From NCBI RefSeq assembly GCF_003261055.1, contig NZ_CP030073.1, positions 8,742,001 through 8,806,000 of the forward strand: a stretch of 64,000 nt of DNA, read 5' to 3'. Of this stretch, positions 14,731-40,775 are shown in pieces; the first letter of the stretch is position 1; each line of letters starts with the position of its first letter. Below the pieces are notes generated by a model, which was given only the letters and a program-made list of their open reading frames with translations, had not been told where the DNA came from and searched no databases. A program made the position numbers and the translations under genes. Source of the DNA: Streptomyces cadmiisoli. Its GTDB lineage: Bacteria > Actinomycetota > Actinomycetes > Streptomycetales > Streptomycetaceae.

Positions 14731-15798
14731 TCAGCGCAGTTTTCCTACCCGGAACGTCGTGGTGTACAGGCGCACCTCGTCCGGGGCCAGAAACGTCATG
14801 GAGCCGTCCTCCCGGGCCGCGGCCTCGCCCTGCACCCGATGCGTGGACGGTTCGAACCCCACCGCGTAGGCGCCCTCACGCAGGTGCAGCCACTGGAAGA
14901 AGGACGGGAACTGGGTCGTGTCGAACTCCAACTCGAAGTAGACACCGAGGCGTTCGTTGACCAGCCGGGGACGGACCAGACCGTTCGCGTCCGGTTCCAG
15001 TTCGTGTTCGTAGACCTGCTCGATGAATCCCGGGAGCGGGGCGGGCATGTCGACGTTCGAGACTCCTTGCTCGGCCACGCTGTCGGTCTGCCACAGCGTC
15101 CGGCTCACCGGGATTTCGTAGCGCGTGCCCTCGTCGAGGAAGGGCCAGCCGATGTTGACGTGGTACAGGTACATGTGCGGAGTGGGATCGAAGCCCGCGT
15201 TGCGCACCCGGTCGGTCAGCCGGATCTCCGTACCGCCGAGATCGGCCTCGATGCGGCGAGTGAGCCGCAGATGTTCTCCGAAGATCGCGGCCTGCCGTAC
15301 CTCGCCCTCGGCCCACAGCACACAGCGGCCGTCGTCCTGCCACTGCTCGCCGTATCCGGTCAGCCGGGCGGGCAGGTTGGCGACCCGGCCGTGCAGCCCG
15401 TGCGACGCCGTGCGCCTGGGCGGATAGCGGTATTGGGAGGCGTCCACCTCGGCGCCGAAGAGGGTGTGGTCGAGGCCCGCGGTGAGCAGCAGCCCCGAGA
15501 AGCTGCGCATCATCGACAGGCCGTCGTCGTCGCGGTACTCGTGCAGCGCGGGGTGCCGGAAGCCGGTCGCGGAGCGCCAGCCGAAGCCACGGCCCTCGAA
15601 CTCGGCCCCGCCCAGGTCCATCGCCCGGTCCACGAGCACGTCGAAGGAGAGTCCCGCGCCGGTGCGGAACTCCAGTGTACGGATGCCGCGTTCGGTGCCG
15701 TCGTCCAGGACGACGGACCGCACTCCGCCCGCGGCGCTCAGATCGCCGGCGAGGCGGGCCAGGGAATGGCGGTCGTGGGAGCGCCCGTGCAGCTTCAC
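14731..15798 (-). CDS. DUF4432 family aldose-epimerase-like protein
   Basis: A 355-residue protein of the DUF4432 group, which shares the galactose-mutarotase beta-sandwich fold. Conserved features include VLVDRAMDLGGAEFEG near residue 50, SASHG-like TASHGLHGRVANLPA near 130, the HMYLYHVNIGWP block near 210 with its histidines, and a Glu in FELEFD. It probably binds or epimerises a sugar or sugar acid in the cytosol. The GTG start at 15798 overlaps the stop of the upstream SDR by four bases (GTGA), so the two are translationally coupled. It is part of the leftward arm of the LacI-controlled unit. Confidence 0.85.
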   Translation of the reverse strand: MKLHGRSHDRHSLARLAGDLSAAGGVRSVVLDDGTERGIRTLEFRTGAGLSFDVLVDRAMDLGGAEFEGRGFGWRSATGFRHPALHEYRDDDGLSMMRSFSGLLLTAGLDHTLFGAEVDASQYRYPPRRTASHGLHGRVANLPARLTGYGEQWQDDGRCVLWAEGEVRQAAIFGEHLRLTRRIEADLGGTEIRLTDRVRNAGFDPTPHMYLYHVNIGWPFLDEGTRYEIPVSRTLWQTDSVAEQGVSNVDMPAPLPGFIEQVYEHELEPDANGLVRPRLVNERLGVYFELEFDTTQFPSFFQWLHLREGAYAVGFEPSTHRVQGEAAAREDGSMTFLAPDEVRLYTTTFRVGKLR

Positions 15799-16541
15799 GC
15801 CATCACCCACCCTCCGTTGACCTCGATGCACTGACCGGTGACGAACGAGGCGTCGTCGCCGGCGAGGAACGACACCACCGACGCCAGCTCGTCGGGTCGC
15901 CCGCGTCGCTTCAGGGCCTGGTGGTCCAGTACATGGCGGCGGTAGGCTTCCGGATCTTCGTGGATCTCTTCGGCCGCGGTGGGGAAGGCGCCGGGCGAGA
16001 CGCAGTTGACGCGGATTTCCACGGGCCCCAGTTCGCGGGCGAGGGCACGGGTGAGTGCGACGGCGGCGCCCTTGGTGGAGACGTATGCCGCCAGTGAGTC
16101 CCAGCCGCCGTGCATCGTGATCGACGCGATGTTGACGATCGCCCCTCCGCCGGTGACGGTCATCCGCCGTGTCGCCGCCTGTGCGGCGATCCAGTAGGCG
16201 CGCTGGTTGACCGCCACCACCTCCTCGTACTCGGCGAGCGGCACCTCCAGGAACGGGCGGCTCGGATACACGGCCGCGTTGTTGACCAGGACACGCAAGG
16301 TGCCCAGCTCGGTCGCCGTCCGTTCCACGGCCTCCTCGATCGTCGCGGCGTCGCGCAGATCGCCGGTGAGGGCCAGTGCTCGGGCGCCGGCGTTCTTCAC
16401 GAGTTCTGCGGTCAGTTCCAGTGATTCGCTGTCGCGGTCGAGGAGGGCGACGTCATGGCCGTCGGCGGCCAGTCGGGCTGCGACCGCCCGGCCCAGGGCG
16501 CCGCCCGCACCGGTCACGAGTGCGGCTCGGGGTTGCTTCAT
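15795..16541 (-). CDS. SDR-family NAD(P)-dependent oxidoreductase
   Basis: A 248-residue classical short-chain dehydrogenase. The cofactor motif TGAGGALG lies near residue 11, NNAAVY near 87, the catalytic Ser in ASITMHGG near 140, YVSTK (Tyr/Lys) near 153, and the C-terminal QCIEVNGGW segment closes the fold. It probably oxidises a sugar or sugar acid hydroxyl in the pathway served by the surrounding unit. GGGA six bases before the ATG at 16541 favours this start over the ATG at 16553. Its upstream region contains the 24-bp palindrome shared with the divergent CoA-transferase operon. Confidence 0.88.
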   Translation of the reverse strand: MKQPRAALVTGAGGALGRAVAARLAADGHDVALLDRDSESLELTAELVKNAGARALALTGDLRDAATIEEAVERTATELGTLRVLVNNAAVYPSRPFLEVPLAEYEEVVAVNQRAYWIAAQAATRRMTVTGGGAIVNIASITMHGGWDSLAAYVSTKGAAVALTRALARELGPVEIRVNCVSPGAFPTAAEEIHEDPEAYRRHVLDHQALKRRGRPDELASVVSFLAGDDASFVTGQCIEVNGGWVMA

Positions 16542-16630
16542 CGGTGATCCCATCTTGCCGGTGCCGTACGGGCGCTGAGGGGGAAGATGCGTGGCGTTGA
16601 CACCGCGAGCGGTGCCCGCCTAGCGTGGAT

Positions 16631-16654
16631 GTTAGCGCTATCGATAGCGCTAAC
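16631..16654. promoter_or_regulatory. Perfect palindrome, likely LacI-family operator
   Basis: GTTAGCGCTATC is followed directly by its exact inverse, a 24-bp perfect palindrome with the central CG typical of LacI/GalR operators. It lies in the short region between the divergent SDR and CoA-transferase genes, and a LacI-family gene ends the rightward operon. Autoregulated control of both arms is inferred. Confidence 0.85.
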
Positions 16655-16753
16655 AACAGGGTGCGGGAGATGAACGCGGCAGCGAGCACACACAAGCCCG
16701 GCCCCCTGGTTCCACTCGTGTCGGTGCCACCCGCCGTCCCCTCAAGGAGCCAC

Positions 16754-17962
16754 ATGACCTCGCGCGACCAGCCCGGCATACTCGCCGGGTACCGGGTCCT
16801 CGACTGTTCCATCGCCATGGCCGGACCCTTCGCCGCCCAGCGCCTCGGTGACCTGGGCGCCGATGTCGTCAAAATCGAACCGGTCACGGGTGAGTGGCAG
16901 CGCCACGCCGCAGCGGGCGGCGCCGGCGGCAACCGGATCAATGTGTCTTTCCTGTCGCTGAACCGCAACAAGAGGTCCCTCGCCGTCGACCTCAAGGACC
17001 CTGCGGGAAAGGAGGTGCTGCGGCGCCTTGTCGCCGAGGCCGACGTCTTCCTCCAGAACTACCGTCCCGGCGTGGCCGACCGGCTGGGCGTCGACTACGC
17101 CTCTCTCGCCGCGCTCAACCCGTCACTCGTCTACGTGTCCATCTCCGGCTACGGCGAGGACGGGCCGTACGCCGGCCGGCCCGGCCAGGACCTGCTTCTG
17201 CAGGCGATGTCGGGGGCCATGCTCTCCGGCGGCCGGGACGGTGAGGCGCCGCGGGCCGCAGGCCAGTACCTCGTGGACGCCGTCACCGCTTCCACAGCCT
17301 TCGAGGGGGTCCTCGCCGCATTGCTGCACCGGGAACGCACCGGCGAGGGCCAGCTCGTGACGGTGAACATGCTCGACGCCATCACCACTCTGCAGATGCA
17401 GGAGCTGTCGGTCCACACGGTCGGCGGGCTGCCGCAGACCCGATCGGCGGAACCTCACGCCCACGTCTACATCCGGTCACCCTACGGGGCCTTCCGCACC
17501 GCGGACGTTCACATCGTCCTGGCTCTTCCTCCCCTGAAGCGGCTCGGTGAGATCATCGGCGAGGACAGCTTCCTGTCCATGGAGGACGAGGAGCACGGCT
17601 GGACCCACCGTGACGAGATCTTCGCCCGCACCGCGTCCCGCCTGCTCACCCGCCCCGCACGCCACTGGCTCGACGCCTTCGCGTCCGCCGGCATCTGGGC
17701 GGGTCCGGTCTACGGATACGCGGATCTGGTGGATGACCCACAGATCCGACACAACGGCACCTTCGTCACCTACGACCATCCCACCGAAGGCCGTGTGACG
17801 GTGCCCGGCTTCCCCTACAGGTTCTCGGCCACCCCGCCTCGCATCGACCGCGGAGCCCCCCTCACCGGCGAACACACCCGGGACATCCTGGCCGAAGCGG
17901 GCCTCGGAGAAGAGGAGATCGAGGCACTGTTCGCCTCCGGCACCGTGGCGGAGACATCGTGA
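16754..17962 (+). CDS. CaiB/BaiF class III CoA-transferase
   Basis: A 402-residue family III CoA-transferase, which moves CoA between carboxylic acids. The opening LAGYRVLDCSIAMAGPFAAQ, then LGADVVKIEP, NRNKRSLAVDLK and the GQDLLLQAMSG block carry the expected pattern; Asp146 is in the place of the catalytic aspartate. AAGGAG eight bases before the ATG sets the start. It is the first gene of the rightward arm, directly behind the palindrome, and its stop overlaps the next start. Together with the enoyl-CoA hydratase it suggests that a sugar-derived or other hydroxy acid is activated as a CoA thioester. The substrate is unknown. Confidence 0.9.
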   Translation: MTSRDQPGILAGYRVLDCSIAMAGPFAAQRLGDLGADVVKIEPVTGEWQRHAAAGGAGGNRINVSFLSLNRNKRSLAVDLKDPAGKEVLRRLVAEADVFLQNYRPGVADRLGVDYASLAALNPSLVYVSISGYGEDGPYAGRPGQDLLLQAMSGAMLSGGRDGEAPRAAGQYLVDAVTASTAFEGVLAALLHRERTGEGQLVTVNMLDAITTLQMQELSVHTVGGLPQTRSAEPHAHVYIRSPYGAFRTADVHIVLALPPLKRLGEIIGEDSFLSMEDEEHGWTHRDEIFARTASRLLTRPARHWLDAFASAGIWAGPVYGYADLVDDPQIRHNGTFVTYDHPTEGRVTVPGFPYRFSATPPRIDRGAPLTGEHTRDILAEAGLGEEEIEALFASGTVAETS

Positions 17963-19047
17963 CCTATGCCGGACTGACCTGGGACCACCCCCGTGGGTAC
18001 GACGCCCTCGCCGCATCCGCGGGGGAACTCGTCCGCTGGGACGTCCAGCCCCTCGAGGGCTTCGAGTCCCGCCCTGTCGACCAACTCTGCGCCCACTACG
18101 ACCTCGTCGTGCTCGACCACCCTCACCTCGGCGAAGCCGTCGCCACCGGATGCCTGCAGCCACTCGACGACCTGTTCGCCGAGGAGGAACTGGCCCGATG
18201 GGGTGCGGACTCCATCGGCCCCACCATGCGGTCCTATGCCATGGACGGCCGGCAGTGGGCGCTCCCGCTGGACGCGGCCACCCAGGTCGCCGCCACCCGG
18301 ACCGACCTCGCCGGCGAGGCCCCCACCACCTGGGACGAGGTCCACCGACTCGCCCGCCGGGCCCCGGTCGCGCTTTCGCTCGCCGGACCACACGCCTTCC
18401 TCACCTTCGCGTCCATCGCGGTCGCCCTGGGGGAGGAACCGGCCGCCGACCCGGACGAACTGATCAGCACCGCCATCGGACTCGCGGTCCTCGACCTCAT
18501 GTCCGCCGTCGACGGCCTGGCACCGCCGGCGGCCCGCACCCTCAACCCGATCGGACTGCTGGAACTGATGGCCGGCACCGACCGGCTCGCGCACTGCCCA
18601 CTGGTATACGGATACGTCACCTACGCCGACCGCCTCGCGTTCACCGACGCGCCGACCGCGGAAGTGGACGGCCGCCCCGGTTCCACCCTCGGGGGCACCG
18701 GACTGGCTCTCAGCGTCCGCTGCGCTCCGTCCGACGAACTGCTGGATCACGTCCGCTGGCTGATGTCCGCAACCGCACAGCGGGACTTCCTCCCCCGCCA
18801 CAGCGGTCAGCCCAGCGCGCGCGCAGCCTGGGCCGATCCGGCGATCGTCGCGGCCGACTTCTACCGCCGGACCACCACGACGTGTGAGAGGGCCTGGGTT
18901 CGGCCCCGGTACGCCGGCTACATCGGCTTCCAGACCGCCGCATCGGCCGCCGTCCGGGAGGCACTCGCCGGGGCCGACCACCACCAGGTCCTCGACCGGA
19001 TGCGCAGGCAGTACCGGACGAGCCGCACTCCGAAGGGACGAACATGA
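17959..19047 (+). CDS. Solute-binding-like protein without signal peptide
   Basis: A 362-residue protein resembling periplasmic binding proteins of the MalE type: YDLVVLDHPHLGEAV near residue 48, PLDAATQVAATRTDL near 103, TTWDEVHRLA near 118. The chain begins straight in a domain-like segment (AGLTWDHPRGYDAL) with no signal peptide and no lipobox, so it should stay in the cytosol. The GTG start overlaps the CoA-transferase stop by four bases, and its own stop overlaps the hydratase start (ATGA), implying fixed stoichiometry with these enzymes. It may be a small-molecule sensor or ligand-sequestering protein. No permeases are nearby. Confidence 0.75.
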   Translation: MTYAGLTWDHPRGYDALAASAGELVRWDVQPLEGFESRPVDQLCAHYDLVVLDHPHLGEAVATGCLQPLDDLFAEEELARWGADSIGPTMRSYAMDGRQWALPLDAATQVAATRTDLAGEAPTTWDEVHRLARRAPVALSLAGPHAFLTFASIAVALGEEPAADPDELISTAIGLAVLDLMSAVDGLAPPAARTLNPIGLLELMAGTDRLAHCPLVYGYVTYADRLAFTDAPTAEVDGRPGSTLGGTGLALSVRCAPSDELLDHVRWLMSATAQRDFLPRHSGQPSARAAWADPAIVAADFYRRTTTTCERAWVRPRYAGYIGFQTAASAAVREALAGADHHQVLDRMRRQYRTSRTPKGRT

Positions 19048-19847
19048 CCCACCCCCGCCCGGCCCTTCCCGGCCTGGGAACCGAGCACGTGCTCCTCGAC
19101 GTCGCGGACCGCGTGGCCACCCTGACCCTCAATCGGCCCGCGAAGCTCAACGCGGTCACCCCCGAGATGTCCGGTGCCCTGGTGCGCGCGATCCAGTGGT
19201 GCGACACCACCGACGACGTCCGTGCGATCGTGGTCACCGGCGCCGGCGAGCGCTCCTTCAGCGTCGGCTCGGACATCGGCGAACTCGACCGGTACGCCAC
19301 CCCGTGGGACTACCGCAACCGCGTCGACTACTGCGACGCCATCCGTTCGGCCCGCACCCCTACGATCGCCGCGGTCCGTGGCTACGCCCTCGGCGGCGGC
19401 CTGGAGACTGCTCTCTCCTGCGACATCCGCCTCGCCTCTTCCGACGCCTCCTTCGGCGCACCGGAGATCACGCTCGGCTGGATCGGCGGCGGCGGGATGG
19501 CCGCCTTCCTGAACCGCGCCGCCGGCCCCAGCAACGCCGCCCTGATGCTGCTCGCCGGTGAACGCATCGACGCCGCACGCGCGTTGCAGTGGCACCTGGT
19601 CAGCGAGGTCGTGGAGGGAGCCGAACTGCTCGGCCGGGCCCGAACGCTGGCAGCCGTGATCGCCTCCCGGGCACCCGTGGCGGCCGAGACCGCGAAGATC
19701 AACCTGCGGGCCGCCGGCAATCTGCCGGAGGACCAGGCCCTTGCCTACGAACGCGACCTGCAGACCATCTGCTTCGCGACCGAGGATGCCGCCGAAGGCA
19801 GACGCGCTTTCGCCGAGAGGCGCGCACCCGTCTTCCGCAAGCGCTGA
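19044..19847 (+). CDS. Enoyl-CoA hydratase/isomerase family protein
   Basis: A 267-residue crotonase-fold protein. The oxyanion-hole segments FSVGSDIGEL (residues ~72) and GYALGGGLETALSCDIRLA (~113) are intact, and the region after GAPEITLGWIGGGG fits the active-site loop. Family members hydrate, isomerise or cleave acyl-CoA thioesters. In this operon it would act on the CoA ester made by the upstream transferase. The ATG overlaps the previous stop by four bases. The next gene starts ten bases after its stop behind AAAGGAA. Confidence 0.9.
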   Translation: MTHPRPALPGLGTEHVLLDVADRVATLTLNRPAKLNAVTPEMSGALVRAIQWCDTTDDVRAIVVTGAGERSFSVGSDIGELDRYATPWDYRNRVDYCDAIRSARTPTIAAVRGYALGGGLETALSCDIRLASSDASFGAPEITLGWIGGGGMAAFLNRAAGPSNAALMLLAGERIDAARALQWHLVSEVVEGAELLGRARTLAAVIASRAPVAAETAKINLRAAGNLPEDQALAYERDLQTICFATEDAAEGRRAFAERRAPVFRKR

Positions 19848-19857
19848 AAGGAACGGC

Positions 19858-21030
19858 ATGAACCAGTGGCCCGACGCGGAGACCACTCTTCCCGACGACG
19901 GAACAGAGGGCGCGCTCGTCGGCCGGGTCTGGCGGCCCGGCCTCGGTCCCTCCGTCGTCGCCGTCCGACAGGACGGCGTGTACGACGTGACCGCAGCCTT
20001 CGCGACGGTGCGCGATCTGTGTGAAACGTCCGACCCCGCCGCGCAGGTGCGTGCGACCCTCGGGGAGCGCTTCGCCGGGCTCGATGAGCTGCTCGCCAAC
20101 ACACCGGTCGACACGCGGGATCCCGAGCGGCCTTGGCTGCTCACCCCGGTGGACCTGCAGGCGGTGAAGGCCGCCGGGGTGACCTTCGTGGTGTCGATGC
20201 TGGAACGGGTGATCGAGGAGCGCGTTCGCGGGGATGCTTCGGAGGCCGCCGTGACACGCGAGCGGATCCGCGAGCTCATCGGCGACGACGTGGCGTCGTT
20301 GCGACCGGGTTCCGATGAGGCCGCCGAACTCAAGAGGATCCTGGTCGCCCAGGGGGTGTGGAGCCAGTACCTGGAGGTCGGCATCGGCCCCGACGCCGAG
20401 ATCTTCACGAAGGCACCGGTGCTGGCCACCGTCGGCACCGCAACCGACGCGGGCATCCACTCGGCCTCACGCTGGAACAACCCCGAACCCGAAGTGGTGC
20501 TCGCGGTCTCGTCGCGGGGCGAGGCGGTGGGCGCGATGCTCGGCAACGACGTCAACCTGCGTGACATCGAAGGCCGTTCGGCGCTGCTGCTGCCCCTCGC
20601 AAAGGACAACAACGCCTCAGCGGCCGTCGGCCCCTTCCTGCGGCTGTTCGAGCCGGGCTTCGGGATCGACGACGTACGGCGGGCGGTGGTCACCCTGACC
20701 GTCGAGGGCGCCGACGGATACCGGCTGGACGCGGTGTCCTCCATGTCCGCCATCAGCCGGGACCCCTTGGAACTCGTGGCGCAGTTGACCGGGCCGCACC
20801 ACCAGTACCCCGACGGTGCGGTGCTCTACCTCGGCACGATGTTCGCCCCTGTGGAGGACCGCGACGCTCCGGGCCAGGGTTTCACCCATCACGACGGCGA
20901 CCTGGTCAGCATCGCGACACCCCGGCTCGGCACCCTGGTCAACCGGATCAGGCCGAGCGACACCTGCGACCCGTGGACCTTCGGTCTTGCCGACCTGATG
21001 CGTTCGCTGGCAGCGCGAGGAGCGCTGTGA
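19858..21030 (+). CDS. Fumarylacetoacetate-hydrolase family enzyme (AraD1/GguC-like)
   Basis: A 390-residue cytosolic enzyme of the FAH superfamily. The long version with GVTFVVSMLERVIEER near residue 105, LFTKAP-like EIFTKAPVLATVG near 180, and EPEVVLAVSSRG and LGNDVNLRDIEGRS, which supply acidic metal ligands, resembles 2-keto-3-deoxy-sugar-acid dehydratases such as AraD1 more than true fumarylacetoacetases. It probably dehydrates or cleaves a keto-deoxy acid. The ATG at 19858 has AAAGGAA upstream. The stop overlaps the LacI start (GTGA), so enzyme and regulator are co-expressed. Confidence 0.85.
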   Translation: MNQWPDAETTLPDDGTEGALVGRVWRPGLGPSVVAVRQDGVYDVTAAFATVRDLCETSDPAAQVRATLGERFAGLDELLANTPVDTRDPERPWLLTPVDLQAVKAAGVTFVVSMLERVIEERVRGDASEAAVTRERIRELIGDDVASLRPGSDEAAELKRILVAQGVWSQYLEVGIGPDAEIFTKAPVLATVGTATDAGIHSASRWNNPEPEVVLAVSSRGEAVGAMLGNDVNLRDIEGRSALLLPLAKDNNASAAVGPFLRLFEPGFGIDDVRRAVVTLTVEGADGYRLDAVSSMSAISRDPLELVAQLTGPHHQYPDGAVLYLGTMFAPVEDRDAPGQGFTHHDGDLVSIATPRLGTLVNRIRPSDTCDPWTFGLADLMRSLAARGAL

Positions 21031-22091
21031 CCTCCGATAACGTTTCCGGCATGACCCAGCCGCCCCGCCGCCCGCGCAAGCGCTCCGCGACCCGTTCCGT
21101 GACCCTCGCGGACGTGGCGGCGGCCGCGGGCGTGTCGGCACAGACTGTGTCCCGCGTCGTGCGCGACCCCTCGTCGGTGCCGGACGAGACACGTCTCAGG
21201 GTCGAAGCGGCCGTCGCGGCCACCGGCTACGTGCCCAACCTCGCCGCCAGCAACCTGGCGTCGAACCGCAGTCGTACGGTCGCCGTGCTGGTCCCGCAGA
21301 TCAACGCGTCGGTCTTCGCCGACACCGTTCACGCCTTTTCGACCGCTCTGGCCTCCCATGGTTACCAGATCTTCGTGGGGACGACCGAGTACCGGCCGGA
21401 GCAGGAGGAGGCGGTCCTGCGCAGCTTTCTGGGCCGGCGGCCGGACGGTGTGCTCATGGTGGGCACCAGCCACACCCGGGGCACGCTGTCTCTGCTGGAG
21501 GCAGGGCAGGTGCCCGTGGTGGAGACGTGGGGATGGTCGGAGGAGCCGGTCGACCTGCTCGTCGGCTTCTCGAACGCGGCGGCGGCGTCCGCGATGGTCG
21601 CGCACCTGGTTGAGCGCGGCCGGCAAAGGATCACGTTCGCCGGCCGGCACACCGCTGGTGACCCCCGGGCCGGGGAACGCCTCGACGGCTACGCGACGGC
21701 CGTCCGCGAGCTGCTGGGCGGCGCCCCGCGCACGGTGGACGCCGGCCCTGAACCGGTCACCATGGACACCGGCGTCACCCTGCTGGACCTGGCGCTGGAA
21801 CGGTATCCGGACTCCGACGCCGTGATGTTCTCCAGCGACGTCTTCGCCGCCGGTGCGCTCCAGGCATGCGTGCGCAGGGGGATCGATGTGCCCGGCACCC
21901 TGGCCCTGGCCGGCTTCGGTGACTTCGAGCTGGCACGCCATCTCGTACCCGCGCTGACCACCGTCGCGGCGCCCGGTGCCCGCATCGGCGAGCTTGCCGC
22001 CGAACTGCTGCTGACCCGCATGCGTGGCGCGCCGGTCGACAGGCCCCATCGCGACGTCGGCTACCAGGTGGTCGCCCGCGGGAGCTCCTGA
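21027..22091 (+). CDS. LacI-family transcriptional regulator
   Basis: A 354-residue LacI/GalR regulator. The helix-turn-helix VTLADVAAAAGVSAQTVSRV is at about residues 25-44, followed by a hinge (YVPNLAASNLASNRS) and a periplasmic-binding-protein-like effector domain ending in TTVAAPGARIGE. The GTG at 21027, with GAGGAG about five bases upstream and a four-base overlap with the FAH stop, is preferred; an ATG at 21051 is the alternative. It most likely binds the palindrome at 16631-16654 and controls both arms of this unit. The effector is probably a pathway sugar or acid. Confidence 0.9.
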   Translation: MTSDNVSGMTQPPRRPRKRSATRSVTLADVAAAAGVSAQTVSRVVRDPSSVPDETRLRVEAAVAATGYVPNLAASNLASNRSRTVAVLVPQINASVFADTVHAFSTALASHGYQIFVGTTEYRPEQEEAVLRSFLGRRPDGVLMVGTSHTRGTLSLLEAGQVPVVETWGWSEEPVDLLVGFSNAAAASAMVAHLVERGRQRITFAGRHTAGDPRAGERLDGYATAVRELLGGAPRTVDAGPEPVTMDTGVTLLDLALERYPDSDAVMFSSDVFAAGALQACVRRGIDVPGTLALAGFGDFELARHLVPALTTVAAPGARIGELAAELLLTRMRGAPVDRPHRDVGYQVVARGSS

Positions 22092-25129: not shown

Positions 25130-25792
25130 TCAGGTGCGCGCCGCCCATCGAAGTCCCCGGTCGACGATCGTCGCCGTCTGCGGCAGTTCCAGATCGGCGA
25201 CTCGGTGACCCAGGGTGCACACGAAGACCCTCCCCGCTCCCCAGCGGCGCGTCCACACCACAGGGAACTCCACCGGCTCGGCCCACGGCCCCCCTGTGGG
25301 TTCGAGGACGGAGGTGGCGAGAACCGTGTTGAGGGCATCGGTCATCACCCAGTAGTGCTCCGTGACGACGTCGTAGTCCCGGATGCCCTCCGTGATTTCC
25401 CCGTCCCGGCCGGGCGAGGAGGTGAGGCGCACCGTGAACTTCTGAAAGCCCTCCGGGTGCCAGAGGAAGCGGCCCCCGACCATGCGCAAGTAGGACGCGT
25501 TCTTGACGTTCGTGCCGATCACGCCCCCGTGCCAGCCGGCGAATCCCGTACCGGCCTCCACCGCGGCGACGAGGCCCGATTCCTGACGCGGACTCAGCTC
25601 GCCTCCCGACCAGGAGTGCACGATGAGATCCGTGGCCGCGAGCAACTCCGCGTCTTCGTAGACCGATAGGTCCTCACGCACGTGGACGTCGAACCCGTCC
25701 TGTTCCAGGCGAGGTGTGAACAGGTCCGTGCATCCGGCGGGATCGTGTCCTTGCCATCCGCCGCGGACCACCAGGGCCTTGCGTGTACGCAT
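25130..25792 (-). CDS. ThuA-like protein
   Basis: A 220-residue cytosolic ThuA-domain protein (class I glutamine amidotransferase-like fold, trehalose-utilisation family). The signatures KALVVRGGWQGHDP at the N-terminus, GFAGWHGGVIGT near residue 85 and VFVCTLGHRVAD near 190 are present. ThuA proteins have been linked to oxidised disaccharide metabolism, but their reaction is unclear. The start lies 19 bases after the stop of the enolase-superfamily gene, so the two form an operon controlled from the motif at 26971. It is unrelated in architecture to the secreted ThuA fusion at 7157. Confidence 0.9.
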   Translation of the reverse strand: MRTRKALVVRGGWQGHDPAGCTDLFTPRLEQDGFDVHVREDLSVYEDAELLAATDLIVHSWSGGELSPRQESGLVAAVEAGTGFAGWHGGVIGTNVKNASYLRMVGGRFLWHPEGFQKFTVRLTSSPGRDGEITEGIRDYDVVTEHYWVMTDALNTVLATSVLEPTGGPWAEPVEFPVVWTRRWGAGRVFVCTLGHRVADLELPQTATIVDRGLRWAART

Positions 25793-25811
25793 GGTGCGGT
25801 TTCCTCCGCTG

Positions 25812-26954
25812 TCACTGTGCCTGCGGGGTGAGCCGCAGGCCTGCGTCGACTGGTCTCACATGCGGGCCGGAGGTGACTGACCACCGACCGGCCGAGGTGT
25901 TCGCGGCGATCCGCGCCTCGTCGACCTCGATGCCCAGCCCCGGCGCGTCGCCGAGGACGATCCCGCCGTCGGCGATCTCCTGGTCGACGCGGAGTCCGAC
26001 CGGTACCGACAGGTCCTGGACCTCCGTCACGAGGTGGTTGGGCATCGCCGCGGCCGCGTGGGCGACCGGGTTGGCGTTGTAGCCGACGGGGCTCACCGGT
26101 AGTCCATGGGCGTAGGCCAGCGTGGACACGCGCAAGAAGTGGGTGATGCCCCACACGCTGCCGGTCTGTACGACCCCCACCGCGTCCGCGTCGAGCAGCG
26201 ACCGGAACTGTTCGAGGCCCGTCAGATTCTCTCCCGTGGCCACGGCGGCGCGGATGCCCGCGGCGACCGCGCGGTGTCCGGCCGCGTCCCAGCGCCTGAC
26301 CGGTTCCTCGATCCAGGTGAGGTCCACCTGCCCTTCGACCTGACGGGCCAGGCGTACTGCCAGATGCCGTCCCCAGGACTCGTTGACGTCGTACATCAAC
26401 GCCGGGCGGGTGGTGTTGGAGCGGAGTACGTCGCGGACAGCGGACAGCCGGTGCACGTCCCGGTCCACATCGAGTCCGCCCTTGACCTTGGCGCCGGTGA
26501 AACCGCGCCGGGCCCAACGGTCGTAGAACGCGACGAGTTCGTCGTCCGTCAGCGCGTACTCCAGGCCGGATGCGTATCCGGGGACGAAGCGGCCGGAGGC
26601 GCCGAGAGCACGCCACAGCGGCTCGCCCGCCATCTTCGCCTTCAGGTCCCAGAGCGCCATGTCCAGAGCGCCGATGGTGCCGAAAACCCGGCCGTTGTGC
26701 CCGGACTTGAAAACGTGGGCGAGCATTCGGTCGTAGAGGGATGTGACCGCGCGAGGGTCCTGGCCGTCGAGCGCGGGAAACACACGGTGCACTTCGGCGT
26801 GGCTCCCGAGCCCGATGCCGGTGAGACCCGCGTCGGTGTCCAGGAGTACGACCGGCACTTCGGTGACGCCGCCAGTGACGACACCGTTGACGTCCCCCAC
26901 CGGGCGTCCCCAGTCGTGCACCGTGGTGAGCGACCGGTAGCCGGTGATCCGCAT
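25812..26954 (-). CDS. Enolase-superfamily sugar-acid dehydratase (copy 1)
   Basis: A 380-residue mandelate racemase/muconate lactonising enzyme family member. The capping domain (residues 1-120) is followed by a barrel with the catalytic TGAKVKGG (KxK, about 154-158), metal ligands in DVNESW, WIEEPV and ATGENLTG. Known relatives dehydrate acid sugars such as L-fuconate or L-rhamnonate to 2-keto-3-deoxy acids. It is a close paralogue of the gene at 39302, but near the C-terminal catalytic region it has GYNANP where the paralogue has GYHANP. The first gene of an operon with ThuA, it lies next to the shared motif at 26971. Confidence 0.9.
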   Translation of the reverse strand: MRITGYRSLTTVHDWGRPVGDVNGVVTGGVTEVPVVLLDTDAGLTGIGLGSHAEVHRVFPALDGQDPRAVTSLYDRMLAHVFKSGHNGRVFGTIGALDMALWDLKAKMAGEPLWRALGASGRFVPGYASGLEYALTDDELVAFYDRWARRGFTGAKVKGGLDVDRDVHRLSAVRDVLRSNTTRPALMYDVNESWGRHLAVRLARQVEGQVDLTWIEEPVRRWDAAGHRAVAAGIRAAVATGENLTGLEQFRSLLDADAVGVVQTGSVWGITHFLRVSTLAYAHGLPVSPVGYNANPVAHAAAAMPNHLVTEVQDLSVPVGLRVDQEIADGGIVLGDAPGLGIEVDEARIAANTSAGRWSVTSGPHVRPVDAGLRLTPQAQ

Positions 26955-26970
26955 CGCGCCGCTCCGCGTA

Positions 26971-26997
26971 AGTCGTAACTTATAATACGAGTGATGA
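26971..26997. promoter_or_regulatory. Likely GntR operator/promoter of dehydratase copy 1
   Basis: On the reverse strand this reads TCATCACTCGTATTATAAG then TTACGACT. It contains the exact inverted arms TCGTA and TACGA spaced by eight bases. It is almost identical (23 of 27 positions) to the sequence at 40711-40737 in front of the paralogous dehydratase. It lies between the divergent dehydratase and GntR genes, in a locally AT-rich patch. Confidence 0.75.
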
Positions 26998-27077
26998 CCT
27001 TAGCATGTTCCGCTAACCTGGGTCGTCGAACAGCGTGGGCCGGAAAATCTGGATGAACATGGGGAGTCGTTGACCAA

Positions 27078-27827
27078 ATGAGCAAGCCATCCGCGGATTC
27101 CACTGCCGTGGCCCGACCTCAGCGGCGCCGGCCGCCCCTCGCCGAAGCCGTGGTCCAAAGCCTCACGACGGCCATCGTGTTGGGGGAGTACCCTCCGGGC
27201 ACGGCGCTCCCGTCGGCGGGTGAGCTGTGCGACCGGTACGAGGTGAGCCGGACCGTGATCCGCGAAGTGACGACGACCCTCGCCGAGAAGGGGCTCGTCG
27301 CAACTCGTCAGGGCTGGGGCACGGTTGTGCTCGACCAGGAGCAGTGGAGCCTGCTCGATCCGCTGATCCTCGACGCGCTGTTCCAGCGGAAGGACCGACT
27401 GGTTTTCCTGGACAACCTGATCGAGATCCGGACCACCCTGGAGTGCGCCATGGCGGCGAGGGCGGCCAAGCGCATCGACGGTGATCAGGCGGCGGCGCTC
27501 TCCGCCAAGCTCGACGAACTGGCGGCGTTGAGGGACGACGCGACGGCCTACTCGCGAGCGGACATCGAGTTCCACGAGATCATCCATCGCGCCTCGCAGG
27601 ACGCGTTCGGGCGGGCCATCGTCTCCAGCATCCAGGGCAAGGCGGTCCGATCGCCCCAGTACAGCGGGCATCCGACCCGCGAGGACATCGACGTGACGCA
27701 TCAGGCGCACGAGCGGATCGCGGCCGCGGTCATCGAGCGGGACGCGGAGGCGGCTGCCGACGCGATGCGGGAGCACATCACGTCGGCGTGGGCCCGGCGC
27801 CGTCCCGTCGACCCGCTCAAGCAGTAG
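27078..27827 (+). CDS. FadR-subfamily GntR regulator
   Basis: A 249-residue GntR-family regulator. A winged helix-turn-helix at about residues 22-85 (LGEYPPGTALPSAGELCDRY, VSRTVIREVTTTLAEKGLV) is followed by an all-helical FCD ligand domain (about 105-235) with conserved Asp/His positions, e.g. DIEFHEIIHRAS and the late HQAHERIAAAV. FCD regulators commonly sense sugar acids. It diverges from the dehydratase-ThuA operon, and the inverted repeat at 26971 is in the shared intergenic region. It probably represses that operon and the ten-gene operon starting at 40576. Confidence 0.92.
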   Translation: MSKPSADSTAVARPQRRRPPLAEAVVQSLTTAIVLGEYPPGTALPSAGELCDRYEVSRTVIREVTTTLAEKGLVATRQGWGTVVLDQEQWSLLDPLILDALFQRKDRLVFLDNLIEIRTTLECAMAARAAKRIDGDQAAALSAKLDELAALRDDATAYSRADIEFHEIIHRASQDAFGRAIVSSIQGKAVRSPQYSGHPTREDIDVTHQAHERIAAAVIERDAEAAADAMREHITSAWARRRPVDPLKQ

Positions 27828-27908
27828 GTTCCGCTGCGAGAACGGCGGGACGCGCACCTGTCGGGCGACGGATGCACCGCCGGCCATGGCCGAGGGTGCA
27901 TACGCGCG

Positions 27909-30557
27909 TCACGGCCGTCCGATCCCCTTCGCGGAGACACGGCGGTTCCACTCTTCGATCCACCTGGATCCGTACGCCTCCGCCACCGCCCCGGAGTCCG
28001 AGAACTTCATGGTGGCGAGGTCCAGGCCCGTCTCGGCCACCGAGGAGGTGAGCACACTCCCGGTGTTGACCTTGTCGCTCCACCGCGACGGCTTGTACAC
28101 CGAAGCCGGCTCGGAGAACGCTGCTGTCGGCTCGACGAATCCGGTGTCGCCGACGACCACCGCATGGTCGATCTCGACCCGGGAAGGCACCCAGACCGAG
28201 TCCGGGTCGTCCCACACCGTGGCCCGACTGCATCCGTTCGTGCCCGACGTGGAGTAGTCGGCTGCCTTGCAGTCCTTCCCTGTGGTGGTCACCCGTGGCA
28301 CGTACCACTCGGTGATCTCCGGGTAGGAGATCGGTTTTCCGTCCGAGTACGCGTGCCTGCCCCTCGTGTAGTGCCGGTGCCAGGCCGCGACCGTCTCCGG
28401 TGTCGCGCTGTACTTCTCGCCGGCGCGCACGTCGAGGAAGGTGTTGAAGCGGCTCAGCAGTACCCAGCTGTTGTCCAGCGGGAGGGACTTCTCGCCCTTG
28501 CGGTGGTAGATGCCGCCATGACCCGCGTGCTTCACGCCGATGAAGACGTTGTCGTTCGCGGTGTTGCTGTGACCGGAGTTGAGGTTGACCCCGGAATGCG
28601 CGCCGTTCACCACGTTGTGGTGGAACCGCACGCCGGAGGCGCCGTCGTCCAGGTACAGGGCGTCGTTGGTCCCACCGATCTTCTCGAAGTGGTTGTAGGC
28701 GACCTCGTTGCCCAGGTAGGTGAAGTCCCGACCGGCGTAGACGACACCCTGGTCACCGGCGTTCTTCACCACGTCGTAGAAGTGATTGTGGTTGACCCGC
28801 ATGTCGTTGCCCATGATCTGCACCGCCATGTGCGGGGCGTCGTGGACGTAGTTGTACTCGAAGGAATTGCCCACCCCGTACAGGTAGCCCGCCGGAGTGT
28901 ACGTCGCCAGCTTCGAGAAGCGGGTGATCTCGTTGCGGCGGGCGATGTTGTTCCCTCTTTCGAGGGTGGCGCGGTCGCCGCCGCCCAACAGGACTCCGCC
29001 GCCGCCGAGGTCGTGCAGGTAGGAATTCTGCACGACGTTGTCGTGCCCGCCCTGCACGGTTTCGTAGTCGGGCATGGCCGTGATGGTGTCCGTCGTGCGC
29101 CCGATACGGATCGCGTCCATGCTCACGTTGGAGATGTCGACCCCGTCGACGAGCGTTCCGACGGCGTCGAGGAGTTGCACGCCGCTGATGAGCGACCCGG
29201 TCATGGTGAGTCCCCGCAGCGTCACGCCGCGGGTGCCGTCGAGCAGGAAGAAGTTCTTGTCGAATGTCTGGAGTGTGGTGACCTTGCCCTCGACGGTCCC
29301 GCCCTCGGGCTTGTAGTACAGCATGTGGTTGTCGTGGTAGCGGTCGATGTAGTACTCGCCGGCCGTGTCCATCTCCGACAGGACGTTGAGCACCTTGACC
29401 TTGGTCCACGCGTCCTGCGGAATGTACATCGAGGGGTACTTGGTGTAGAGCCTGTCGTCGCTCCAGGACAAGATGCGCACCATGTCGTTGGCGTAGTTGT
29501 TGCCGAAGTACCCCGACAGCCAGCCCTCGGTCTCGGCCTTCGTGTTGTCGACGTCCTCGATCCAGCGCGGATCCAGTTGCACGGGCACGTCCGTGTAAGC
29601 ACCGAAGCCGCGGGTTCCGAGATCGTCGACGACAGGCTCTGCCTCCGGCGCCCAGCGCTGGTAGCGGTCGTCGGCGAGTGCCCGGCCCCCGACCGTTAAG
29701 ATCGACGGCGTCATGCGCCGCATCTCCTGCGGAGACCAGGTGTCCCGCTGCCCGGGGTCGTCATGCAGCTGCTTCTTGTCCTCGAACTGGGCCCTCGGGG
29801 TGGTCCCGGAGAAGTTCCAGTCGTTCTGCGGGCCGAAGCGGGCGTCGAGGTCCACGTTGACGAGATCACGGGGAGTGTCGGCGTCCCACTTGTCGCCCGT
29901 ACCCCACAGGTGACAGTCCGTCTCCGTGGTCGAGCACGTGTTGCCGTTCGGGTACTCGGCCAGGACCTGGGCCCTGCCACTGACGACGAGTTCGGGCGCG
30001 AAGGGCTGCTGGACCCAGTTGAAGCCGTTCTTGTAGAGCGTGCCGGGATCGATGCCTGCCGCGCCCAGGTCGTAGACCCAGACTCCTTGGCGCAACTCGG
30101 TCGTGTCGAGACGGTTGTGTGAGGAGTACCGGGGCTGGGCGAGCGTCTCCGCGGGGAGGTCGGAGAGCCTCTTCCAGCCGTCGGCCGGCAGGTCGTGGGA
30201 CCCGGTGATCGTCACCTTCTCGTTCTGGTACGCGGTGTACGTGACCCACGAGTTCTCCGGTCCTGTGAGCCGGACCGTGTCGTCCAGGACGTAGGTGCCG
30301 CCGCGAATGAGGACCGTGCCCCGCGCATGGGCCGTGGTGCGGCCGGCCAGCGCGTCCCGGGCGGCGGCGATGGTCCGGAAGGGGTCTTTCCTGCCACCGC
30401 TGTTGTCGTCGTTGCCATCGGTGGCCGAGACGTAGACGGTCAGCTTTCCGCCCGCGCTGGTGGCCGACGACGCGACGGCCGGTCCGGCGAGTGTCGCCAT
30501 CAATGTCAAGGCAAGGCCGGTGGCGGCAATCCGTGCTGGTCTTGGCTCAGTTCTCAT
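27909..30557 (-). CDS. Secreted right-handed parallel beta-helix protein
   Basis: An 882-residue exported protein. A signal peptide (ATGLALTLMATLAGPAVASS) precedes a DUF1565-like start (TVYVSATDGNDDNSGG, FRTIAAARDAL) and a long run of beta-helix turns (residues ~330-720) with N-ladders such as HNHFYDVVKNAG and NEVAYNHFEKIGG. The fold is typical of polysaccharide lyases and glycoside hydrolases acting on pectin-like or fucose/rhamnose-containing polymers; the substrate is inferred only from its place beside a deoxysugar operon. The start pair ATG-ATG at 30560/30557 follows AAAGG; longer forms are not leader-like. It converges on the GntR gene. Confidence 0.85.
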   Translation of the reverse strand: MRTEPRPARIAATGLALTLMATLAGPAVASSATSAGGKLTVYVSATDGNDDNSGGRKDPFRTIAAARDALAGRTTAHARGTVLIRGGTYVLDDTVRLTGPENSWVTYTAYQNEKVTITGSHDLPADGWKRLSDLPAETLAQPRYSSHNRLDTTELRQGVWVYDLGAAGIDPGTLYKNGFNWVQQPFAPELVVSGRAQVLAEYPNGNTCSTTETDCHLWGTGDKWDADTPRDLVNVDLDARFGPQNDWNFSGTTPRAQFEDKKQLHDDPGQRDTWSPQEMRRMTPSILTVGGRALADDRYQRWAPEAEPVVDDLGTRGFGAYTDVPVQLDPRWIEDVDNTKAETEGWLSGYFGNNYANDMVRILSWSDDRLYTKYPSMYIPQDAWTKVKVLNVLSEMDTAGEYYIDRYHDNHMLYYKPEGGTVEGKVTTLQTFDKNFFLLDGTRGVTLRGLTMTGSLISGVQLLDAVGTLVDGVDISNVSMDAIRIGRTTDTITAMPDYETVQGGHDNVVQNSYLHDLGGGGVLLGGGDRATLERGNNIARRNEITRFSKLATYTPAGYLYGVGNSFEYNYVHDAPHMAVQIMGNDMRVNHNHFYDVVKNAGDQGVVYAGRDFTYLGNEVAYNHFEKIGGTNDALYLDDGASGVRFHHNVVNGAHSGVNLNSGHSNTANDNVFIGVKHAGHGGIYHRKGEKSLPLDNSWVLLSRFNTFLDVRAGEKYSATPETVAAWHRHYTRGRHAYSDGKPISYPEITEWYVPRVTTTGKDCKAADYSTSGTNGCSRATVWDDPDSVWVPSRVEIDHAVVVGDTGFVEPTAAFSEPASVYKPSRWSDKVNTGSVLTSSVAETGLDLATMKFSDSGAVAEAYGSRWIEEWNRRVSAKGIGRP

Positions 30558-30583
30558 CATTGAGGAACCTTTCGAGCACATAA

Positions 30584-30600
30584 CACATGTATGACATGTG
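30584..30600. promoter_or_regulatory. Palindrome upstream of the beta-helix gene
   Basis: CACATGT and its exact inverse ACATGTG are separated by ATG, 24 bases before the secreted beta-helix gene. The core GTATGACA resembles GTATGATA in the motif at 40711, so it may be another site of the same GntR regulator, or of a related one. This link is inferred. Confidence 0.55.
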
Positions 30601-30684
30601 CACAGTAGGGTGATCGACGACCGGGGACAAGCGGTCGGGCAGAAGAAGTCGGCGTCGGTCCATGTGCCCCGCCGCACCGTCAGG

Positions 30685-31476
30685 TCAGCTCTTCGCGGGC
30701 CGCAGTCGCAGGCCCTGCATTCCGCCGTCGACGGCGAGGGCGGTGCCGGTGACGGACGCTGCCGCGGGGGAGGCCAGATACCCGATCGCCGCCGCGACCT
30801 CCTCGGCGGACACCAGTCGCCCTGTCGGCTGCCGGGACTCGAGTGCCTTGCGCTCCACCGCGGGGTCCTCGGAGCCGGACAGCAGACGGTCTATCCAAGG
30901 GGTGTCGGCCGTACCGGGATTGACACAGTTCACGCGGATGCCCTCGCCTATGTGGTCGGCAGCCATGGCGAGCGTCAAGGACAGCACCGCTCCCTTGCTG
31001 GCGCTGTACAGCGCGCGCTGTGGCAGTCCCGCTGTTGCGGCGATCGAGCAGGTGTTGATCACCGCTGCGTGCCGGGAGGCGCGCAGATGAGGCAACGCGG
31101 CGCGCGTCGTGCGGACCATGCCCAGGACGTTGACGTCGAGGACCCGTGCCCACTCCGCGTCGTCGTTGTCCGCCACCGTGCCCTGGGCGCCGATGCCTGC
31201 GTTGTTGACCAGGATGTCCAGGCCGCCCAGGCGCTCCGCGGTGTACGTGACCGCGGCACGGACCGATACGTCGTCGGTGACATCGCACCGTACGGAGAGC
31301 AGCAGTTCCGCGTCGTCGGCCGGGAGGGACTCCGGGGCGCTGTCGAGTACGGCGACCCGGGCGCCGCCCCGCGCCAGGTACCGGGCGGTCGCGAGCCCAA
31401 TCCCCGATGCCCCTCCGGTCACCGCAGCGGCGAGACCATCGAACGCGAGAGGCGGGGGAGCGGGTATGTTCGGCAT
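30685..31476 (-). CDS. SDR dehydrogenase, likely 2-keto-3-deoxy-sugar-acid dehydrogenase
   Basis: A 263-residue classical SDR. The cofactor motif TGGASGIG (about residue 20), NNAGIG (about 95), the catalytic SIAATAG serine region, YSASK (about 160) and the PGTADTPW loop are intact. In the known diketo-hydrolase route this step oxidises 2-keto-3-deoxy-L-fuconate or -rhamnonate at C4 with NAD+. The start has AAAGGA eight bases upstream; the gene lies 26 bases after the mutarotase gene and ends the long leftward operon. The exact substrate is inferred from context. Confidence 0.88.
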   Translation of the reverse strand: MPNIPAPPPLAFDGLAAAVTGGASGIGLATARYLARGGARVAVLDSAPESLPADDAELLLSVRCDVTDDVSVRAAVTYTAERLGGLDILVNNAGIGAQGTVADNDDAEWARVLDVNVLGMVRTTRAALPHLRASRHAAVINTCSIAATAGLPQRALYSASKGAVLSLTLAMAADHIGEGIRVNCVNPGTADTPWIDRLLSGSEDPAVERKALESRQPTGRLVSAEEVAAAIGYLASPAAASVTGTALAVDGGMQGLRLRPAKS

Positions 31477-31502
31477 GTGGGTGTTCCTTTGGGTGCTGTT
31501 GA

Positions 31503-31844
31503 TCAGTCCAGATGGAAGAGTTCCTCGCTGTCCACCCACCGCTCCCGCGGCCCGGCCGAGTCGAGGGGCTGCTGGCAGGGGTCGGTGAGAGCCCACCAGC
31601 GCTGGGTGTCTGGGTCGCCGGCGATGGCGGCCATGTCGGCGGCGTAGTCGTTGCCGGTGTACTCGTAGTAGGCGAACAGGGTGTCGTCCCGCAGGAAGAT
31701 GGAGTAGTTCGTGATGTGGGCGCGAGAGAGTGCGTCCAGCACGGGCTGCGGAACGGAACGGTGCAGTTCGCGGTACTTGTCGGCGTGTTCCGGACGCAGC
31801 CGGATCACAGAGGCGACCCGACGGGGCGTAGGACGTTCGGACAT
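31503..31844 (-). CDS. L-rhamnose/L-fucose-type mutarotase
   Basis: A 113-residue protein of the RhaM/FucU-like mutarotase family, dimeric ferredoxin-like proteins that interconvert alpha and beta anomers of a 6-deoxysugar. Seen are VIRLRPEHADKYRELH with its catalytic His, HITNYSIFLRDDTLFAYYEY, and WWALTDPCQQPL near the C-terminus. It is usual length for the family (about 105-115). The ATG lies two bases after the permease stop, so it is coupled to the importer. It supplies the right anomer to the aldose dehydrogenase. Rhamnose versus fucose cannot be told from sequence here. Confidence 0.9.
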   Translation of the reverse strand: MSERPTPRRVASVIRLRPEHADKYRELHRSVPQPVLDALSRAHITNYSIFLRDDTLFAYYEYTGNDYAADMAAIAGDPDTQRWWALTDPCQQPLDSAGPRERWVDSEELFHLD

Positions 31845-31846
31845 GG

Positions 31847-32689
31847 CTATCCCTTGACGGCTCCTGCGGCCAAGCCGCTCATGATGTGCCGCTGCATCAC
31901 GATGAAGATCACCAAAATGGGGATCACCGCGAGCAGCAGAGTGGGGAAGACCTTGGTGTAGTCCGTGGAGTACTGGCCCACGGCCGCGTACACACCGGTG
32001 GTGACGGTGTAGATGCCGCTGCCCGGACCGAGGATCATCTGCGGGCTGGCGAAGTCGTTCCAGACGCTCAGCGAGTTGAGGATGAACACGGTGGCGATGA
32101 TCGGCCGCATCAGCGGCAGGATGATTCGCCACAGCGTGTGGTACTTGCCGGCGCCGTCGATGGCCGCAGCCTCGTCCAGCGACCTGGGCAGCACCCGGAT
32201 GTACCCGAAGAACACGAACAGCGTGAAGGGGATGGTGGTGGCCGTCATGAACAGGATCAGCCCGGGCAGGGTGCCCATCAGCCCGATTGCGCGCAGCACG
32301 AAAATGACCGGCACCAGGATCACCTGGGTGGGTATGAACATGCCCGCGATGAAGAAGAACAACAGCAGCCGGAAGACCGGCTTCGGTGTGCGGGCCAGCG
32401 CGTACGCTGCGGGGGCGCACACCGCCATGGCGATGGCGTTCACGCACAGCACCAACGCCAAAGTGATGCCGTAGCCCTTCAGAATGCTGAAGTCCGGATT
32501 GGTCCAGGCGTCGGCCAGGTACTGGAACGTGGCCGTGCCGGGATTCAGCGAGAAGGGGTTGGCGAGGATCTCCTGCTGACTCTTGAAGGTGTTGATGACC
32601 AGGATGTACATCGGCACGAGCATGCCGAGGGACACGAGACAGATGAATGCCACGCGGACCGTGGCTGCGGTGGAGGTTGTCTTGTTCAT
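31847..32689 (-). CDS. Sugar ABC transporter permease (MalG type)
   Basis: A 280-residue inner-membrane permease with six hydrophobic segments, starting with VRVAFICLVSLGMLVPMYI. The EAA loop (about residues 190-210) reads LDEAAAIDGAGKYHTLWRI, the contact site for the ATPase subunit. It belongs to the CUT1 carbohydrate uptake family. Its ATG overlaps the stop of the partner permease by four bases. No ATPase gene is present in the operon or the window; Streptomyces CUT1 importers generally share the MsiK ATPase encoded elsewhere. Confidence 0.93.
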   Translation of the reverse strand: MNKTTSTAATVRVAFICLVSLGMLVPMYILVINTFKSQQEILANPFSLNPGTATFQYLADAWTNPDFSILKGYGITLALVLCVNAIAMAVCAPAAYALARTPKPVFRLLLFFFIAGMFIPTQVILVPVIFVLRAIGLMGTLPGLILFMTATTIPFTLFVFFGYIRVLPRSLDEAAAIDGAGKYHTLWRIILPLMRPIIATVFILNSLSVWNDFASPQMILGPGSGIYTVTTGVYAAVGQYSTDYTKVFPTLLLAVIPILVIFIVMQRHIMSGLAAGAVKG

Positions 32690-33597: not shown

Positions 33598-33600
33598 GGA

Positions 33601-34875: not shown

Positions 34876-34919
34876 TTCTTTCTTCCTCGATGGTGAAAAG
34901 CCGGCAGTACGGTCGGTCG

Positions 34920-36365: not shown

Positions 36366-36385
36366 GGCGTTCCTTCCGGAGCGGT

Positions 36386-40576: not shown

Positions 40577-40710
40577 GTGCTCCCCCTCTGTGTGCGCGCT
40601 CGCGCCCCGTGCCTGTGGCAGTGGTGGGGGAGCGCGCCGGTACCTGCGTAGTGACGGGAGAATCGCGTGGTGAGGACGTCAGGGAGGGGCATGTAACGGC
40701 CCCTCAACGC

Positions 40711-40737: not shown

Positions 40738-40775
40738 GTTGAGGTCCGTCGGCAGTGAACTTCCGGGGCTGTGGA

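Follow-up and report, generated by a model that had tools for sequence, protein, structure and literature searches.

The Weimberg, or oxidative non-phosphorylative, pentose pathway comprises a dehydrogenase, a lactonase, an aldonate dehydratase of the IlvD/EDD family, a D-2-keto-3-deoxypentonate dehydratase of the FAH type and a semialdehyde dehydrogenase. A different treatment of a hydroxy acid is found in carnitine metabolism, where racemisation by the class III CoA-transferase CaiB and the crotonase CaiD proceeds by reversible dehydration. Here we analyse a 64,000-nt stretch of Streptomyces cadmiisoli NZ_CP030073.1 (hereafter the window, to which all coordinates refer) and within it a seven-gene unit that sets a CaiB-type CoA-transferase, a solute-binding protein (SBP)-like protein and an enoyl-CoA hydratase (ECH) among sugar-acid genes. 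We propose, at a probability of roughly one in two, that the unit encodes a non-phosphorylative sugar-acid route in which the aldonate is dehydrated as its CoA thioester, with the CaiB-SBP-ECH trio replacing the aldonate dehydratase. The features of the unit, which spans two divergent arms, are as follows.

14731-15798, minus strand: DUF4432 protein, aldose 1-epimerase (mutarotase)-like (PF14486, 293 bits)
15795-16541, minus strand: short-chain dehydrogenase/reductase (SDR) (PF13561/PF00106), a probable sugar dehydrogenase
16631-16654, no strand: 24-bp perfect palindrome GTTAGCGCTATCGATAGCGCTAAC between the two arms, a probable LacI operator
16754-17962, plus strand: CaiB/BaiF class III CoA-transferase (PF02515, 351 bits against a gathering score of 23.3)
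17959-19047, plus strand: SBP-like, leaderless protein with an SBP fold, presumably cytosolic
19044-19847, plus strand: ECH/crotonase (PF00378, 183 bits)
19858-21030, plus strand: FAH-superfamily protein of apparent D-2-keto-3-deoxypentonate dehydratase type (9kkt FAH-family protein, E = 1.5e-119)
21051-22091, plus strand: LacI-family regulator (PF00356 and PF13377)

A sequence-only reading of the window had assigned these seven genes to these positions and families, and open reading frame (ORF) calls and Pfam matches agree with it, the FAH sublabel aside. We retrieved relatives through the SBP gene, keeping the best 80 of 393 genome-collection stretches that encode one (L001-L080) with up to 10 kb on each side; this choice biases the sample towards close relatives, and the set includes near-duplicates, for example among the Azospirillum loci. 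CaiB, SBP and ECH follow one another without interruption on a single strand in 77 of the 80 relatives as well as in the window, and the gap is exactly -4 bases at 34 of 77 CaiB-SBP and 32 of 79 SBP-ECH junctions. These records span Actinomycetota and the Alpha-, Beta- and Gammaproteobacteria of the Pseudomonadota. Identity to the window proteins is mostly 69-93% for CaiB (outliers L047 and L048; no CaiB match in L065) and 61-90% for ECH (outlier L047). The sequence-only reading had asked whether all seven families co-occur across actinobacteria, and had named neighbourhoods that consistently separate the genes as evidence against it. What travels together is the trio, which the neighbourhoods keep intact, whereas DUF4432 (54 of 80), FAH (42) and a window-type LacI (40) come and go, as does the SDR; ALDH (aldehyde dehydrogenase, 20), GFO/IDH (27) and xylose-isomerase-like genes (27) are likewise variable. 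The conserved unit is therefore CaiB-SBP-ECH and not the set of seven. Names given here to neighbour families (GlyK, RhaM, rhamnosidase, permeases, GH141-like) come from the Pfam matches of one representative, from NCBI labels or from sequence reading.

The three exceptions to contiguity support the CaiB-SBP partnership. Two of them, L048 and L065, read DUF4432-SDR-SBP-ECH-FAH with no CaiB in place, and a 74% identical CaiB is encoded elsewhere in both genomes; the third, L047, is a diverged set in which CaiB adjoins SBP. Across 343 sampled Streptomyces genomes, an SBP orthologue (E <= 1e-60) occurs in 9 and a CaiB orthologue (E <= 1e-120) in 10, with all 9 in common. Since linked genes co-occur trivially, the weight of this result rests on the unlinked cases: in two of the nine genomes (G303 and G473) SBP and CaiB lie apart and both are still present. 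In G524, the remaining CaiB genome, an SBP of 38% identity adjoins CaiB. Distances among the genes are correlated as well, mostly through common descent, and we gave this no weight as evidence. The SBP is thus an almost obligate partner of CaiB. Upstream and downstream modules do differ from locus to locus, as would be seen if the genes were merely co-regulated, belonged to no single pathway and retained the SBP as a relic; the contiguity of the trio, the genome-level co-occurrence and the 52 residues that are invariant across 81 SBP sequences make this very improbable.

What kind of protein is this partner? Its predicted structure has the fold of a sugar SBP, and the mature fold begins at residue 1, with no export signal seen. 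A hydrophobic N-terminus is present in 5 of 81 trio SBPs, as against 41 of 45 secreted SBPs of the same loci. No permease gene lies within the window operon (14731-22091), and relatives often carry a complete transporter with a secreted SBP of its own. The trio SBP differs from CUT1-type sugar SBPs such as LpqY and the trehalose/maltose-binding proteins in these respects and in being translated directly behind CaiB. We conclude from the model and the N-termini that it is presumably cytosolic; the earlier label of a solute-binding-like protein holds for the fold and not for an exported role in transport. The transporters beside the trio gave little hint of substrate: the RbsB-type SBP of one relative (L064) matched generic sugar SBPs only, and a CUT1 SBP of Azospirillum gave no match at E 1e-15. 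We therefore name no substrate.

The two enzymes of the trio look catalytically intact, judging from aligned residues. After rows below 55% identity were left out (two CaiB, one ECH), Asp175 of CaiB, which we take to be the single Asp nucleophile of class III CoA-transferases, is conserved without exception (78 of 78 sequences); the same holds in 80 of 80 for Glu121 and Glu141 of ECH, which align with the presumably catalytic glutamates of EchA8. With the succinate-hydroxymethylglutarate and formyl/oxalate CoA-transferases, CaiB shares the family fold and the catalytic Asp region; unlike them, it falls far under the cut-off in all seven of its NCBIfam hits, so that family membership does not predict its acid. 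Carnitine CaiB-CaiD is similar in pairing a class III CoA-transferase with a crotonase on a hydroxy acid, and dissimilar in that the trio is accompanied by sugar genes and an SBP-fold partner. Against the carnitine CoA-transferase model, CaiB scores 123.9 bits, below the equivalog cut-off of 413.

By sequence, CaiB appears closest to the dicarboxylate-type enzymes: its nearest solved structure is succinate-hydroxymethylglutarate CoA-transferase (SUGCT), and its top NCBIfam match is succinate-glutarate CoA-transferase, albeit at 228 bits against a cut-off of 750. These matches would suit a trio that degrades a non-sugar acyl acid (hydroxymethylglutaryl or some other dicarboxylate, for example) set free from the glycoside whose sugar is handled by SDR, DUF4432 and FAH. 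Such an arrangement seems unlikely to us, given that the partner protein has a sugar-SBP fold, that FAH and ALDH directly follow the trio in six Azospirillum operons, and that no thiolase, lyase or carboxylase appeared among those recurrent neighbour families identified by hidden Markov model (HMM) or sequence reading, which are a part of the families present.

The fate of the product is suggested by the FAH protein. The sequence-only reading had called it AraD1-like, which did not survive: the NCBIfam AraD1/GguC model (NF040903) gave no hit to it at E 0.01, while the same model scored 467 bits (cut-off 340) on the true AraD1 of another locus (L103). It instead resembles D-2-keto-3-deoxypentonate dehydratases in sequence. 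It matches 2q18 at E 5e-12 and is close to 9kkt, whose deposited name states no reaction; we found no paper describing 9kkt or 9kkv. D-specific 2-keto-3-deoxypentonate dehydratases are annotated as FAH family members (PMC7374468), and the Sulfolobus D-2-keto-3-deoxypentonate dehydratase is likewise placed in the FAH family (PMC9795676).

We compared the contexts of this FAH in 11 loci (L093, L096-L105) picked from the 60 matches listed of 280 in a plasmid search. Five of the 11 carry IlvD/EDD: FAH, ALDH and IlvD are consecutive in Marinovum algicola (L097), IlvD and FAH are adjacent in Burkholderia pyrrocinia (L099), and IlvD lies 4.3-4.4 kb from FAH in two pSymA loci of S. meliloti (L093, L100) and in Thioclava (L103). 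One of the 11 (L104) is itself a trio locus. The IlvD-linked L097 and the trio-linked L060 are 70% identical in FAH and 69% in ALDH, and in the FAH tree L097 groups with L060 and L073, also trio-linked (support 98/78, inside a 100/98 set), although the L097 branch is long and its exact placement unsure. Given the well-supported branches of the tree, the IlvD label must have switched two or more times. Because of these identities and this grouping, the same FAH-ALDH cassette is judged, on sequence, to stand behind either IlvD or the trio. Sampling by phylum at E 1e-50 recovered FAH in 3 of 296 genomes including that of the window, too small a number for a test of context.

Set against the Weimberg pathway, then, the trio loci share the SDR, an FAH protein of the same superfamily with a common context in relatives, LacI, ALDH in 20 of the 80 relatives and, in many loci, sugar ABC transporters. 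They differ in that none of the 80 contains IlvD/EDD (three IlvD queries, E <= 1e-20, over half length), and CaiB-SBP-ECH stands where it would be. Twenty loci have both FAH and ALDH, and 14 of these lack a gene of the MR_MLE family, absence here meaning no match to four reference sequences. The argument is sharpest in the six Azospirillum loci (L015-L019, L021), which read SDR-CaiB-SBP-ECH-FAH-ALDH with a divergent LacI and an ABC transporter, and in which no other dehydratase gene was seen. If FAH and ALDH act as their context suggests, only CaiB, SBP and ECH are left there to form the 2-keto-3-deoxy acid. A CoA thioester renders the alpha proton acidic, a crotonase removes an alpha hydrogen together with a beta hydroxyl, and pentonates and hexonates have a beta hydroxyl; on these grounds we propose CoA-dependent dehydration.

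Some MR_MLE enzymes are sugar-acid dehydratases, and their presence in part of the sample allows another role for the trio, in which CaiB and the crotonase would invert C2 or C3 by reversible dehydration, as in carnitine racemisation, and a separate MR_MLE or IlvD enzyme would carry out the net dehydration. An MR_MLE match occurs in 25 of the 80 loci, on the same strand, upstream and two genes before CaiB in L020, L034, L056, L061, L066 and L078 and elsewhere in the locus for the others; in the window itself, two MR_MLE genes lie some 4-18 kb downstream. The first of these has L-talarate/galactarate dehydratase as its top match, with cycloisomerases and racemases close behind and none strong. 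Epimerisation would leave many loci with no neighbouring net dehydratase, given the 14 of 20 that lack MR_MLE and the absence of IlvD throughout, and we hold it to be rather improbable, slightly more so than the degradation of a parallel acid.

Several observations weigh against CoA-dependent dehydration by the trio. Six of the 20 loci with FAH and ALDH do have an MR_MLE gene, on the same strand, upstream and separated from CaiB by two genes. FAH is missing within the fetched stretch in 38 of the 80 loci, so in those loci no neighbouring FAH would take up the product of the trio, and five of the 11 plasmid FAH loci (L096, L098, L101, L102, L105) showed no IlvD and no trio over the stretch read. 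ALDH is absent from the window operon, its nearest homologue in the genome being 2.1 Mb away, and in sphingomonad loci a 2-hydroxyacid dehydrogenase and a glycerate-kinase-like gene take its place. In the open-licence literature, no paper was found under six aldonyl-CoA names.

A further plasmid search uncovered diverged CaiB-SBP pairs, with SBPs 31-39% identical to that of the window. In six loci (L137, L138, L140, L146-L148) the pair sits in sugar-type surroundings with L-rhamnose mutarotase and GFO/IDH, five of them also with MR_MLE and a CUT1 transporter; in L137, DHDPS and ALDH adjoin CaiB-SBP. MaoC, another hydratase fold unrelated to crotonase, is encoded in 7 of 11 diverged-pair loci of at least 17 kb. 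These loci are partly redundant, since L140 and L148 barely differ in the genes concerned and three come from a single species. MaoC was not found within the stretch in L137 or in three S. meliloti pSymB copies, among them strain 1021 near 732 kb (L145). Left out of this count were L142, where a diverged SBP has its CoA-transferase and crotonase on the other strand, the 4-kb L126, and L127, which coincides with L143. CaiB-SBP is thus retained while its hydratase has one fold or another, and this suggests that the step in common is thioester hydratase chemistry. A broader formulation, that these loci represent a CoA-dependent sugar-acid dehydratase system in which an SBP has been recruited as the cytosolic, near-obligate partner of CaiB and in which crotonase (in the clade beside FAH) and MaoC (in the diverged clade) are interchangeable, falls somewhat short of even odds in our estimate.

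If the surroundings are any guide to substrate, some point to pectin. Trios of sphingomonads and some actinobacteria lie near genes for beta-helix proteins of GH141- or GH28-type, L-rhamnose-mutarotase-like proteins and fucose-type enzymes, and four loci (L040, L043, L070, L079) have a rhamnosidase-like gene (by sequence reading, not HMM) with split transketolase genes, a set that recalls the apiose pathway as we presume it to be composed. The substrate might then be a branched or unusual pectic sugar acid, such as apionate, aceric acid or an O-methyl sugar acid, activated with CoA because ordinary dehydratases cannot act on it. Neither the Azospirillum operons, which end in FAH and ALDH as a linear pentonate needs, nor the rhizobial loci contain those genes, and we regard this explanation as unlikely, on a par with the parallel acid. 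Nothing useful on aceric acid or apiose came up among the papers listed in a literature search.

A second sugar cluster lies in the window at 25130-41636 (NCBIfam scores under the cut-offs). It encodes ThuA, the two MR_MLE proteins (25812-26954 and 39302-40576), a GntR-like regulator, a secreted-looking beta-helix protein, an SDR, an L-rhamnose-mutarotase-like protein, a CUT1 ABC transporter, a fuconolactonase-like amidohydrolase, an aldo-keto reductase, a 2-hydroxyacid dehydrogenase and a second FAH protein close to 2,4-didehydro-3-deoxy-L-rhamnonate hydrolase. Around the trio, sphingomonads and other actinobacteria have genes similar to those of this cluster.

Under the proposed dehydration of an aldonyl thioester, the window unit would work as follows. 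DUF4432 would mutarotate the aldose, consistent with its match to 3ty1 (a hypothetical aldose 1-epimerase, 62 bits) and with an orthologue of equal length annotated as aldose 1-epimerase family. The SDR, whose top NCBIfam subfamily is glucose 1-dehydrogenase (213.1 bits, just below the cut-off of 215), would oxidise it to the lactone or aldonate. CaiB, on its family, could shift CoA to the aldonate from a donor, for which succinyl-CoA is a possible source, giving aldonyl-CoA; the crotonase, with its conserved residues, may then remove water across C2-C3 to yield a 2-hydroxy-enoyl-CoA that ketonises to the 2-keto-3-deoxy-acyl-CoA, from which CaiB would pass CoA on to the next aldonate. The SBP-fold protein would most likely serve CaiB as an intracellular sugar-acid-binding partner. 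Homology and context suggest that FAH dehydrates the 2-keto-3-deoxypentonate to 2-oxoglutarate semialdehyde, and an ALDH, encoded in the operon of some relatives and by a homologue elsewhere in the window genome, would convert this to 2-oxoglutarate. The earlier idea of a sugar-derived or hydroxylated acid passing through a CoA ester accordingly fits the gene contexts, with the amendments that the unit is the trio, that FAH is not AraD1 and that the SBP is presumably cytosolic.

The nearest trio-type ALDH homologue of this genome lies close to a separate cluster with IlvD/EDD (C1:6636574-6650619; L116, L117), which also has DHDPS-, ABC- and GH43-like genes by sequence reading. This ALDH could complete the trio route.

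Control of the unit would be exerted by LacI, acting as a repressor at the palindrome. The perfect palindrome that the earlier reading saw between the divergent arms is indeed there as a 24-mer. The window contains its inner 22 bases only once, none of 100 shuffles of the window gave a match at up to 3 mismatches, and within that tolerance it recurs in all 12 of the closest loci (L001-L012). It lies directly upstream of CaiB in 10 of these and, in L011 and L012, upstream of a transporter gene preceding CaiB, and it keeps its place upstream of CaiB even where other genes have switched arm (L002-L005, L009). Because of this recurrence despite rearranged arms, we consider it a candidate operator for the CoA-transferase promoter.

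Coupling of the genes is somewhat looser than the mostly four-base overlaps first described. Such overlaps exist for SDR/DUF4432, CaiB/SBP and SBP/ECH, but ECH and FAH are separated by 10 bp, and an overlap of FAH with LacI requires that LacI start at GTG 21027. An annotated Streptomyces orthologue of LacI (1041 bp) uses the later start, which leaves a 20-bp gap, and ATG 21051 is for that reason the most likely start. For the SDR ORF, an alternative start lies at 16553.

Further variants of these genes were also seen. In Persicobacter (Bacteroidota; L139), two CoA-transferases are flanked by two SBP-annotated genes near a RhaT-type transporter, GFO/IDH and MaoC. Two Streptomyces loci (L118, L120) carry another SBP variant by two unassigned genes and a homologue of window 44178-46055; a 38% identical CaiB precedes the variant in L118, and no CaiB is present in the 8-kb contig of L120. 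By sequence reading, window 44178-46055 encodes a secreted beta-helix-like protein and window 42638-43825 an IS630-type transposase-like protein, and L118 carries homologues of both within a few kb of each other.

Among the matches listed in the open-licence literature, we found no description of CaiB, SBP and ECH in sugar metabolism or of any aldonyl-CoA, in line with the initial remark that the pathway was not a recognised one, and we know of no precedent for an SBP as partner of such an enzyme system. We place the system among the non-phosphorylative routes for sugar acids, as an apparently undescribed form partnered by an SBP, and regard the proposed mechanism as about an even call. An SBP fold recruited into a cytosolic enzyme system would be unusual in itself, and enzymes free of Fe-S clusters could serve in the production of 2-keto-3-deoxy acids. 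If the proposal is true, dehydration through a thioester would be a third chemical strategy for sugar acids, beside the Fe-S enzymes of the IlvD/EDD family and the Mg-enolate enzymes of the enolase superfamily, and would assign a role to a conserved trio whose present annotation, in bacteria associated with soil and plants, is part of a transporter plus enzymes of fatty-acid type.

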